From: a virus
DNA length: 64,000 bases
IMG/VR virus record: IMGVR_UViG_3300024299_000645
Span: 1-64,000 of that record
Reading direction: 5' to 3' (one strand)
Part shown: positions 20,852 to 24,015 of the stretch, in pieces
Position numbering within the stretch: position 1 is the first letter of the stretch
Layout: each line of letters begins with the position of its first letter
The notes under the pieces: generated by a model
Databases searched by the model: none
The model's input: only the letters and a program-made list of their open reading frames with translations
What the model was told of the DNA's origin: nothing
Translations under genes and position numbers: made by a program

Positions 20852-21334
20852 ATGAATAAATTATGGTACACTTGGCAGGAAATGTGTCTTGATGTTAATC
20901 AACTCTGTAGAGAGATTACATTAGATAAATTTGAGCCAGACGTGATCGTGGGTTTAAGTAGGGGAGGTTTAACGCCTGGCGTTATGATGTCCCATTGGTT
21001 AAAAAAACCTTTTAAGCCCGTGAAGAGCTCTCTTAGAGATTTTCCAGAATGGGAAGATTATCTCCCTAGGAATACTGATGAGAGAGTTTTAATAGTAGAT
21101 GACATATGCGATAGTGGTGAAACGTTTGAACGTATATCATCTTTTATTAAGGGCCCGAAAAAGGACAAGCCCTTAGAAATCAATTGTGATGTAAGGTTTG
21201 CATCACTTTGGTGGAATAATGAAGTTAATTTTGAACCTCATTATTACGTAAGGGAGGTAGCAAAAGATACCGAGAATCTCTGGATTCATTTTCCATGGGA
21301 AGCCTGGTGGTCTGCGCCTCTTACTTTTCAATAA
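20852..21334 (+). CDS. Phosphoribosyltransferase
   Basis: 160 residues. VLIVDDICDSGETF (79-92) is the PRPP-binding motif of type I phosphoribosyltransferases, and IVGLSRGGLTPGVMMSHWL (about 32-50) is the N-terminal substrate loop. The family joins bases to PRPP in nucleotide salvage. The C-terminal LWIHFPWEAWW is typical of hypoxanthine/xanthine-type or archaeal-like members (FPW-E-W). Together with the nucleoside-binding protein at 21.7 kb it could form a salvage route, which is an inference. Confidence 0.85.
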   Translation: MNKLWYTWQEMCLDVNQLCREITLDKFEPDVIVGLSRGGLTPGVMMSHWLKKPFKPVKSSLRDFPEWEDYLPRNTDERVLIVDDICDSGETFERISSFIKGPKKDKPLEINCDVRFASLWWNNEVNFEPHYYVREVAKDTENLWIHFPWEAWWSAPLTFQ

Positions 21335-21353: not shown

Positions 21354-21575
21354 ATGTTAGATAACGTGCTCAGTTGGATTAGAGGTATAACCGAATTAGG
21401 TCTTGCAATAATTGCTCTTGGCGTTGTTCTTCAAGTAATCTTTGGTGCGGCTGTACCATTTCTCGGAATGGATATCGTGGGTTCAGTAGTGTCACTCGTA
21501 AAACAATTAGGTGCAGAAGGATTAATCGGCCTAGTTTCAATATGGGTACTTTGGGGAATCTACTCTAAGAAGTAA
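21354..21575 (+). CDS. Small membrane protein, 73 aa
   Basis: Two hydrophobic segments: about residues 15-36 (LGLAIIALGVVLQVIFGAAV) and about 51-69 (LGAEGLIGLVSIWVLWGIY), separated by a short loop. I recall similar short proteins as common in marine T4-like phages, without known function; a holin-like role would fit size and topology but is not shown. A good AAAGGA precedes the start, and a strong terminator follows, so it ends a transcription unit. Confidence 0.65.
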   Translation: MLDNVLSWIRGITELGLAIIALGVVLQVIFGAAVPFLGMDIVGSVVSLVKQLGAEGLIGLVSIWVLWGIYSKK

Positions 21576-21586
21576 GACAAAAAAAT

Positions 21587-21611
21587 AAAAGGCCTCTTCG
21601 GGGGCCTTTTT
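21587..21611 (+). terminator. Rho-independent terminator
   Basis: AAAAGGCC (21588-21595) pairs with GGCCTTTT (21603-21610) around the loop TCTTCGG, and the stem is continued by a T-run on the plus side. It lies 12 bases after the small membrane protein gene. Confidence 0.85.
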
Positions 21612-21686: not shown

Positions 21687-22772
21687 ATGAAACGATTAAT
21701 TTCATTTCTATTAGTATTGGTTGTATCAACAACCTTATTTGGTATTTTAAATGCGAAACAAATTTCAATAGGTTATGTTCTAGTGGGGCCACATAATGAT
21801 GGTGGCTGGTCAATGCGACATCATCAAGGATTTCAATCCTTGACAAAACATGGTTACAAAGTCTCAATGGTTGAGATGGTGCCAGAGTCAGATTCCAAAA
21901 AAGTATTTTCCAAACTTGCAAGAAAACATGACATTGTTTTTGCAACATCGTTTGGTTATATGGATCCAATGGTGAAGGCAGCAAAGAAAAATAAAGATAC
22001 TGTTTTCTTACATGCCACTGGTTATAAAGGTAATGATGAAAATATGGACAATTATGTTTGTCATTCATTTCAAGCACGATACCTTACAGGGATTGCAGCC
22101 GGACTGTTGACGAAGACAAACAGTATTGGTGTAGTTGGATCACATCCAATTCCAGAAATCATTCGAAACATTAATGCTCTTACTCTAGGAGCTCAAACAG
22201 TTAATCCAGATATTAAAGTTAAAGTTGTTTGGATAAACTCTTGGTTTGATCCACCTAAAGATATGGATGCTGCTAAAGCACTCTTAGATGATGGTAATGA
22301 TATTCTCTATACAACAACTGATTCACCTAGTGTGGTTTCACTTGCACAACAGGCATGGAAATCTGATGGTAAAGAAGTTTGGAGTATGGGTAATGATGCG
22401 CCTATGGGTGATAATGGGCCAGATCGATACATCACAGGTATGATGTTCAATTGGAACGTTCTTTATAAACATATCGTTGATCAACTTGCTAGCGGTAAGT
22501 TAGAAATGAATCAACGATGGGCATGGGGTCTACAAGAAAATTGTGTAGGTCTATCTCCATGGGGTAAGAATGTTCCCGGCGATGTTGTAAACAAAGTTGA
22601 GACAATTAAAATGAATTGGATCAATGATGAGATGGGTACATACTATCCATTTGATCAAGGTGTTACTAAACAAGATGGAACAAAAGTTCCTGCTGGGGAA
22701 ATACAAAGACCACAACTCGAGACTATGCAATATTTTGTTAAAGGTGTTGTTTCTCGATTTCCTACAAAATAA
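21687..22772 (+). CDS. BMP/PnrA-family periplasmic substrate-binding protein (nucleoside-type)
   Basis: 361 residues. A Sec signal peptide (MKRLISFLLVLVVSTTLFGI..., cleavage near residue 22) is followed by the BMP fold: IGYVLVGPHNDGGWSMRHHQG (substrate-binding Asn/Asp/Trp segment), FATSFGYMDPM, ARYLTGIAAGLLTKT and WSMGNDAPMGDNGPDRY. The family binds nucleosides for ABC uptake. Neither a lipobox cysteine nor the permease and ATPase genes are present here, so it would need host transporter parts. It is a host-like auxiliary gene, analogous to phage PstS. The upstream gap (21612-21686) contains no clear promoter; GGAAGGG precedes the ATG. Confidence 0.85.
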   Translation: MKRLISFLLVLVVSTTLFGILNAKQISIGYVLVGPHNDGGWSMRHHQGFQSLTKHGYKVSMVEMVPESDSKKVFSKLARKHDIVFATSFGYMDPMVKAAKKNKDTVFLHATGYKGNDENMDNYVCHSFQARYLTGIAAGLLTKTNSIGVVGSHPIPEIIRNINALTLGAQTVNPDIKVKVVWINSWFDPPKDMDAAKALLDDGNDILYTTTDSPSVVSLAQQAWKSDGKEVWSMGNDAPMGDNGPDRYITGMMFNWNVLYKHIVDQLASGKLEMNQRWAWGLQENCVGLSPWGKNVPGDVVNKVETIKMNWINDEMGTYYPFDQGVTKQDGTKVPAGEIQRPQLETMQYFVKGVVSRFPTK

Positions 22773-22774
22773 TT

Positions 22775-23674
22775 GTGACTATTCCGATAATCGATTTTCG
22801 TAGTAATGCAATAGAACAACAAATGTATGATGTATATACGACTTGTGGTTTTGCTGTATTTACAAATGTCTACGATGAATGGTTATCGGAATTCCAAGAT
22901 TGGAAATATCTCACAGAAGAATTCTTTCAACTACCATTAGATGTGAAAAAGAAATATGTATATAATGGAGTAAAGGGTTCATCAACATGTCGTGCCGGCT
23001 GGGGTGAGATGGGATATATTCAGAGTCGAGATGGTGATTCGAAAGAATCATATAATTGGATTGAATCAGCAAGAATGCAAGAACAATATTGGCCTACAGA
23101 AATTCCAGAGTTTAAACCATTAGCACAATCTATCCTTCAAATCTCTCAACGTCTTTCCCATCAATTTTTCAATAAGTTTGAAAGTATGTTTAAACATAAA
23201 AAAGGATATTTAATAGATAAGCATATGAATGGTTATGTTAATATGAGAATGCTTCATTATCCAGCACACGAGAAGCAAGAGGAACACGAGTCTGGAGGAG
23301 AACATACTGATTATGGTTCTATTACTTTACTCTTTCGTTTTGATGATGTTGGTGGACTACAAGTACAAGATAGAGAAACAAATGAATGGATTGATGTTCC
23401 TGTAGTGAAAAATTCAATAGTATTAAACATTGGAGATATGTTTCAAAGATGGTCCAATGATACGTTAAAATCAACCAACCATAGAGTTGTTAATACAGTC
23501 CATACAAAATCTCGCTATTCAATGCCTTATTTTGTGGATCCCGGTAGAGATGTATTAATTAAGAATTTCACAGATGAACCAGATAAACATTTACCAATTT
23601 CTACCGATGAATATTTTAAACAGACCCTAGCTCAACATAATATTGAACAGAGTTGGGAACAACAGATTAATTAA
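22775..23674 (+). CDS. 2OG-Fe(II)/isopenicillin-N-synthase-like oxygenase
   Basis: 299 residues. The iron ligands are H177-T-D179 and H236, and the R-x-S cosubstrate motif is R247-Y-S249. N-terminal IPIIDFRSNAIEQQMYDV matches the DIOX_N region of the IPNS/gibberellin-oxidase group. IPNS-like enzymes of this group act on small molecules including amino acid derivatives; the substrate here is unknown. The gene starts with GTG (MTIPIIDF) two bases after the BMP gene, so the two are probably translated together. Confidence 0.88.
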   Translation: MTIPIIDFRSNAIEQQMYDVYTTCGFAVFTNVYDEWLSEFQDWKYLTEEFFQLPLDVKKKYVYNGVKGSSTCRAGWGEMGYIQSRDGDSKESYNWIESARMQEQYWPTEIPEFKPLAQSILQISQRLSHQFFNKFESMFKHKKGYLIDKHMNGYVNMRMLHYPAHEKQEEHESGGEHTDYGSITLLFRFDDVGGLQVQDRETNEWIDVPVVKNSIVLNIGDMFQRWSNDTLKSTNHRVVNTVHTKSRYSMPYFVDPGRDVLIKNFTDEPDKHLPISTDEYFKQTLAQHNIEQSWEQQIN

Positions 23675-23684
23675 AAAGGAAAAT

Positions 23685-23990
23685 ATGCTACCAGTATTAT
23701 TATTTAATGTGATTTCAGGACTTGTTATAGACAAAGCGCAAGACCTCGCGAAGGAGCACGTGGAAGCAATGATTGATAGTATCATCCCAGATGATGCAAA
23801 AGAAGAGTTAGATGATCTTGTTAAATCCGATCCTACTCACGTGTTTGAAACAGCAAAAGAAGCTTTAGGTGCAGCAGTTGAAGGAAAGCTCCCTATACCA
23901 TTAAAAGATGGGACACTTAAACCTATAGAACTTACTTTTAAGGTAAAGTTTGATCCTACCACTATGGATTTAGATATCGAAAAAGCTTGA
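23685..23990 (+). CDS. Hypothetical protein, 101 aa
   Basis: Starts MLPVLLFNVISGLVIDKAQDL, a mildly hydrophobic N-terminus that may be amphipathic rather than a signal, then an acidic helical region (IIPDDAKEELDDLVK) and PIELTFKVKFDPTTMDLDI at the end, which looks like beta-strands. ATG 23685 has AAGGA upstream; 14 in-frame upstream codons lack a plausible start site. Its stop overlaps the -35 box of the uvsX promoter. Similar small proteins are common in marine T4-like phages; function unknown. Confidence 0.6.
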   Translation: MLPVLLFNVISGLVIDKAQDLAKEHVEAMIDSIIPDDAKEELDDLVKSDPTHVFETAKEALGAAVEGKLPIPLKDGTLKPIELTFKVKFDPTTMDLDIEKA

Positions 23991-24015
23991 CATTTGTTTC
24001 AACTTGTGGTATAAT
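23987..24015 (+). promoter_or_regulatory. Sigma70-type promoter, perfect consensus, for uvsX
   Basis: TTGACA at 23987-23992, 17-base spacer, TATAAT at 24010-24015, 28 bases before the uvsX ATG. The -35 overlaps the stop codon of the preceding gene. Confidence 0.9.

Follow-up and report, generated by a model that had tools for sequence, protein, structure and literature searches.

The gene at positions 21687-22772 raises the question of what a phage would gain from an exported substrate-binding protein, and which ligand that protein would bind. The gene lies in a stretch of 64,000 nucleotides, referred to here as the window, which belongs to a virus record 167,436 bp long. An ORF of 361 aa with an ATG start occupied exactly positions 21687-22772 on the + strand. 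Its residues 27-314 were matched by the Pfam family Bmp (PF02608) with an E value of 2.9e-46 and 158.3 bits against a gathering cut-off of 24.1. Residues 1-23 formed a putative export leader, judged by its hydrophobicity, of the kind found in all 61 full-length viral copies tested; a Cys was present in the leader of three of these 61 and not in that of the window copy. The AlphaFold2 model of the protein (mean pLDDT 79.5; residues 289-312 under 50) showed a predicted two-domain periplasmic-binding-protein fold, and its top Foldseek matches were BMP-family substrate-binding proteins (TM 0.7-0.8, with an rmsd of about 5 A to AtzT). Purifying selection on the gene was indicated by dN/dS values of 0.10-0.12 in all four phage pairs compared. 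The signal peptide and BMP fold proposed in the preliminary description were thus both recovered, and the ORF is confirmed as a real, intact gene of the BMP family with a predicted export leader.

The gene order was DNA polymerase, phosphoribosyltransferase (PRTase), 73-aa ORF, hairpin, BMP, 2OG-Fe(II) oxygenase, 115-aa ORF and uvsX, in agreement with the earlier placement of the gene in a replication and nucleotide region near a PRTase. The phage was considered T4-like because a DNA polymerase (phrog_262), a clamp loader, UvsX and a gp41-like helicase were identified in the window by Pfam and PHROG. The BMP gene lies on a phage genome and is flanked by these phage genes. The polymerase was at most 49.3% identical to those of deposited phages among the matches listed, which were mostly from Synechococcus and Prochlorococcus phages. 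No Pfam or PHROG match was obtained for the 73-aa ORF. A perfect sigma-70 promoter match (TTGACA-17-TATAAT, with TG before the second hexamer) was located just upstream of uvsX at window positions 23987-24015, and a late-promoter search with TATAAATA returned 4 sites, below chance expectation. The features of the locus are as follows.

20852..21334, + strand: purine-type PRTase with the PRPP motif VDDICDSGET at residue 82 (PF00156; the nearest PDB chains are purine phosphoribosyltransferases).
21354..21575, + strand: 73-aa ORF between PRTase and BMP, hydrophobic by eye, in a cluster with members in 22 loci.
21587..21610, no strand assigned: terminator-like hairpin separating the 73-aa ORF from BMP; its score is for the − strand, but a T run closes the + strand as well.
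21687..22772, + strand: BMP-family (AtzT-like) substrate-binding protein, 361 aa, with predicted export (PF02608; AtzT and 3s99 nearest by sequence and Foldseek; dN/dS).
21687..21755, + strand: predicted signal peptide, residues 1-23, with cleavage after ...ILNA by eye (hydrophobic leader; helix 2-21 in the model).
21807..21953, + strand: predicted purine pocket, first half, Trp41 (21807), Ser88 (21948) and Phe89 (21951), aligned to AtzT Tyr45, Ser97 and Phe98.
22155..22322, + strand: predicted purine pocket, second half, Glu157, Asn161, Trp186, Thr210 and Asp212, aligned to AtzT Glu165, Asn169, Trp194, Asn218 and Asn220.
22775..23674, + strand: 2OG-Fe(II) oxygenase, with a GTG start 2 bp past the BMP stop codon (PF03171 and PF14226).

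We think that the phage probably provides its host with a binding protein for purine bases, which would dock on permeases of the host and supply the salvage of bases for phage DNA. In this reading the BMP would bind guanine, adenine, hypoxanthine or xanthine in the periplasm. It would be made during infection and exported by the host, so that more binding protein would be present in the periplasm, and by docking on the host's own two-permease ABC importer it would increase purine-base import. The phage PRTase would couple the imported base to PRPP, which would give purine nucleotides for phage DNA. The oxygenase, probably encoded on the same transcript as the BMP, may act on the imported base or on a modified form of it.

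A scan of IMG/VR yielded 73 BMP loci, several of them near-identical, and all counts below are counts of loci. The BMP gene is part of a widespread marine phage cassette of predicted purine PRTase, BMP and 2OG-Fe(II) oxygenase, with variations; neither the oxygenase immediately downstream, nor this spread in marine phages, nor SAR324 bacteria as the closest cellular holder had been noticed in the preliminary description. The PRTase was located at most 1.2 kb upstream of the BMP in 39 viral loci and not there in 14, among the 53 with that much upstream DNA. Next after the BMP in the 61 loci with 1.2 kb of downstream DNA came a 377-aa membrane protein (c4) in 19 and an NMT1-type binding protein in 7. 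Anywhere in the 73 loci, the PRTase was found in 47, the oxygenase in 38, c4 in 22, an adenine-PRTase-like protein (c5; NF005592, 231 bits against a cut-off of 143) in 20, GMP reductase in 10, the NMT1-type protein in 10, isocitrate lyase in 9, and PRPP synthetase and OMP decarboxylase in 6 each, with cluster identities resting on one representative per cluster. Variants of the cassette thus add c5 with c4, GMP reductase, PRPP synthetase or a full NMT1-type ABC importer. In most loci with the NMT1-type binding protein, ATPase and permease genes came after it, and this importer lay directly or shortly after the BMP in ten contigs (L008, L013, L023, L026, L027, L036, L042, L043, L045 and L076). 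A polymerase was present in the stretch covered of 18 of the 73 loci; three were of a very different type (28-29% identical), which indicates that the cassette is carried in different replication contexts.

Two further genes were observed near such cassettes. A phage-borne isocitrate lyase gene (L013:9576-10853) scored 674 bits against an NCBIfam equivalog cut-off of 562, and isocitrate lyase is listed among virome genes (PMC4053976). An arylsulfotransferase-like gene, as at L008:8505-9563, adjoins the importer genes in 6 loci. Among 50,697 deposited phage records, 11 BMP matches were obtained, all of them unannotated 'Bacteriophage sp.' entries. These were not taken as cultured phages with a BMP: the best one and the only one examined, MT836531, reads by eye as a stretch of bacterial chromosome with the order PRTase, BMP, ABC ATPase and two permeases. 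No report of the cassette was found in the literature on phage BMP/PnrA, nucleobase uptake, binding proteins and SAR324 phages, in a search whose coverage excluded preprints and most subscription papers.

The membrane protein c4 had no Pfam, NCBIfam or PHROG match, no significant PDB match and no match in 52 SAR324 genomes, and its AlphaFold model (pLDDT 31.9) was useless. In phages it is followed by c5, as at L009:6110-7835, and the same pair, about 42-44% identical, also occurs in a Fusobacterium replicon. Profile comparison with SAR324 NCS2 permeases gave a probability of 0.3% (shallow alignments). We did not name c4 an NCS2 permease, since a base-permease role is suggested solely by its usual adenine-PRTase-like partner.

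Cellular relatives of the BMP were found at two distances. Homologues were detected by tblastn on 465 plasmid records, with a best identity of 39% among those listed. Eight loci were examined of 20 listed, 35-39% identical to the phage BMP, and purine genes adjoined the BMP in five of the eight. In Pseudoalteromonas, xdhABC and a nucleobase symporter were alongside; in Acinetobacter, allantoicase, HpxO (urate hydroxylase) and Rieske oxygenases; in Paroceanicella, xdhABC, guaD, 8-oxoguanine deaminase and PuuD; in Haloarcula, a nucleobase symporter and a molybdopterin-binding protein; and in Ruegeria, xdhABC. No adjacent purine-catabolism gene was seen in the other three, namely pADP-1, where s-triazine genes were alongside, Azospirillum and Roseicitreum. 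A scan of one genome per species (84,980 species) gave 8 BMP loci. Five of these had cellular neighbours, were titled SAR324 or Deltaproteobacteria and were 66-79% identical to the phage BMP; the other three were MAG contigs with phage gene order. As judged by sequence, the closest cellular homologues are therefore those of SAR324 bacteria. In the phylum of one SAR324 genome, 29 of 52 genomes had a BMP match at E 1e-20, of which five were 65-80% identical and the rest at most 47%. The oxygenase was matched in 25 of the 52 at E 1e-15 (best 65%) and the PRTase in 21 at E 1e-5 (best 61% over part, 60% over most of the length).

In three SAR324 loci (L078, L079 and L080) the order was cytochrome c, permease, permease, BMP and oxygenase. 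BMP and oxygenase are adjacent there as in the phage and are 78-80% and 56-58% identical to the phage proteins, whereas the operon is chromosomal and, unlike the phage, has its own permeases and a cytochrome c gene. At another SAR324 locus (L081:5359-9487) the BMP has VanA_C and Rieske oxygenase genes, a GST gene and an ABC ATPase nearby, an arrangement that we take to resemble purine N-demethylation clusters. A different 2OG oxygenase lies upstream of the BMP in SAR324 L082.

The oxygenase has the motifs HTD at 177, NHRV at 235 and RYS at 247, corresponding to HxD...H and RxS. Its recurrence lends itself to another explanation, which we consider unlikely, namely that the cassette serves modified heterocycles such as methylated purines or thymine-like bases, which the BMP would import and the oxygenase would demethylate or hydroxylate before salvage or for nitrogen. 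The oxygenase was found at most 250 bp after the BMP in 19 of the 61 loci with 1.2 kb of downstream DNA and somewhere downstream in 37, thymine dioxygenase was among its nearest PDB matches (3e-23), and Rieske-type or other 2OG oxygenase genes accompany the BMP in L081, Acinetobacter and L082. However, in 24 of the 61 loci no oxygenase was found in the stretch covered. In addition, 2OG oxygenases form a very broad family: 3oox, the top match in the PDB, is a putative oxygenase, and plant hormone and alkaloid enzymes match too.

The other question about the ligand is whether it is a base or a nucleoside. In phmmer searches the best PDB sequences were 3s99 (1.1e-63) and AtzT 6pi5 (1.7e-61), and the next was Lbp 7x0r (2.1e-14). 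Foldseek likewise placed AtzT and 3s99 first (1.4e-27 to 3.3e-26), followed by 4p98 and PnrA (2e-17 and weaker), so the closest kin by sequence and fold were not PnrA-type nucleoside binders. Identity as a B6-type binding protein was not supported, as the BMP scored 58.5 bits with NF047927 (putative B6 ABC transporter substrate-binding protein) against a curated cut-off of 400. AtzT of Pseudomonas sp. ADP (PDB 6pi5, 6pi6 and 6pii) is a guanine-binding BMP-family protein that retained guanine through purification, with KD values of 0.11 uM for guanine, 2.5 uM for adenine and at least 620 uM for thymine, cytosine and uracil; adenine was modelled in the site of 3s99 (PMC6834077). Guanine is contacted in AtzT by Ser97, Phe98 N, Glu165, Asn218 and Asn220, sandwiched by Tyr45 and Trp194, with Asn169 and Thr139 behind (PMC6834077).

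The numbering offset of AtzT was checked, and all nine residues looked up fell on the expected letter. At these nine positions the window BMP has W41, S88, F89, R131, E157, N161, W186, T210 and D212. Five are as in AtzT, three more are as in 3s99, and T210 is as in neither. W41, S88, F89, E157 and W186 would provide the aromatic sandwich and the Ser, Phe backbone and Glu contacts of the AtzT/3s99 type. The phage protein is 33-37% identical to AtzT and has a similar fold, with Trp41/Trp186 for Tyr45/Trp194 and with the Ser, Phe, Glu and Asn kept, but Asn218 and Asn220 of AtzT are replaced by Thr210 and Asp212; the AtzT gene also has its own ATPase and permeases, where the phage gene has PRTase and oxygenase instead. 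Brucella 3s99, a cellular protein, is identical to the phage BMP at the Trp, Ser, Phe, Arg, Glu, Trp and Asp positions; Asn161 and Thr210 of the phage protein correspond to Gly and His there. The site residues were invariant over 67 phage rows except for W41 (one gap) and T210 (Thr in 65, Ser in 2); these rows are the 76 non-SAR324 rows minus 9 shorter than 300 aa and include three MAG contigs and near-copies. All nine residues were also common to the five close SAR324 copies. The NDGGW stretch, where the preliminary description had sought the ligand-binding residues, was present, with Trp41 intact. Purine bases are the likelier ligand because eight of the nine positions are as in AtzT or 3s99 and are nearly invariant over the 67 phage copies.

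The preliminary description had proposed a PnrA-type nucleoside-binding protein that raises nucleoside uptake, much as PstS does for phosphate. An aid to uptake is plausible; that the ligand is a nucleoside we regard as quite improbable. The protein belongs to the same Pfam family, named PnrA-like, and the structures of PnrA and BmpD, which bind nucleosides (PMC7093131), share its overall fold and also match the BMP model. Their match is much weaker, however, with all PnrA-type entries ranking well behind AtzT and 3s99, the PRTase next to the BMP belongs to a kind that uses bases rather than nucleosides, and the bacterial relatives occur with base-catabolism genes. Since AtzT and 3s99 outrank every PnrA-type entry by sequence and fold and the AtzT pocket is largely kept, a purine base is more likely than a nucleoside as the predicted ligand.

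In the purine-base reading, the permease would come from the host. The earlier statement that no permease lies in the window could be extended to the whole 167-kb record (which may be incomplete) for the types used as queries: no match was obtained with the permeases of SAR324, with the NMT1-type permease and ATPase of phages or with c4, the 377-aa membrane protein of related phages. A second likely substrate-binding protein of the same phage (L147:3663-4781; record positions 147663-148781) is 64% identical to the SBP_bac_3 protein at L006:703-1872 and is followed by two more ORFs common to related phages; SAR324 genomes carry homologues of the L006 protein, up to 48% identical over most of its length. 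With no cognate permease found in the record, the BMP might work outside uptake, for example as a decoy or as a block of a surface or periplasmic step (superinfection exclusion). This is very improbable, as the pocket residues are conserved in almost every copy and the gene is accompanied by metabolic genes, including full importers in some cases. A chimeric assembly or a decaying passenger gene is hardly credible, for although the record is metagenomic and such contigs occur in three MAGs of other phyla as well, the gene arrangement and the phage genes around it are found again in the separate contigs L002-L005 and L009-L011, and dN/dS is about 0.1.

As the T4-like polymerase of this phage was matched in none of the 52 SAR324 genomes, it is gene kinship that points to SAR324 as the putative host. 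In one study, 23 viral sequences were predicted for SAR324, and ABC-transporter auxiliary genes were named in general (PMC10224230). The MAG contigs L075-L077 (Acidimicrobiaceae, Chloroflexi and Saprospiraceae) were not taken as evidence of hosts because their gene order looks like that of co-binned phage. In control searches at E 1e-10, 197 of the 198 genomes of one phylum lacked a PRTase match, the exception being the genome that holds L077 (G005), and the BMP was at best 40% identical in another phylum (201 genomes) except in the genome that holds L076 (G004).

The second permeases of three SAR324 operons with phage-like BMPs (L080, L078 and L091) were 83-89% identical to those of six others (L095, L097, L101, L102, L108 and L109), whereas the BMPs of the two sets were 44-48% identical and those within each set at least 84%. 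Because such similar permeases occur with either kind of BMP, the phage-type BMP fills the binding-protein slot of a SAR324 importer, whichever way the transfer went. The gap between permease and BMP was 347-556 bp in the phage-like operons against 88-110 bp in the others, but it was 420 bp in L094, so the longer gap is not unique to the former.

In an IQ-TREE phylogeny of 86 BMPs, SAR324 L081 and L082 branched outside all viral copies (99/97), and L078, L080 and L091, together with the phage contig L015, fell inside the viral clade (node of 41 rows, 100/99). By parsimony this suggests capture of the BMP from host to phage and a later return to SAR324. In AU tests, a single clade of all viral BMPs had p 0.0515 and a single clade of the five close SAR324 BMPs p 0.0303; both are borderline, and the oxygenase tree does not decide the direction. 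It is possible, and we propose it tentatively, that phages and SAR324 trade the binding protein of a purine-base importer both ways. A SAR324-type binding protein would have turned into a mobile module of phages, and a BMP-oxygenase pair that had evolved in phages would have returned to SAR324 chromosomes, replacing the resident binding protein behind conserved permeases; phage evolution would then reset the uptake of a host importer.

To our knowledge, the phage uptake genes in print are chiefly for phosphate (PstS). PstS and BMP are unrelated binding-protein families. The closest precedent is PstS of the cyanophages P-SSM2 and Syn19, likewise a phage-borne binding protein, which takes phosphate where the phage BMP is predicted to take a purine base, and which has been associated with increased uptake by infected cells (cited in PMC12421899). 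In diverse ocean phages, BMP and phosphoribosyltransferases seem to make up a path that leads from dissolved purine bases to nucleotides, with PRPP synthetase, GMP reductase or whole importers added in some. Ocean microbes exchange purines (PMC11698098), and such infections would therefore channel that exchange into the DNA of phages. Through this kinship, SAR324 becomes a host that can be tested for uncultured phages, and the mismatch between SAR324 permeases and binding proteins provides a natural experiment on whether an importer of the host can be driven by a binding protein from a phage.
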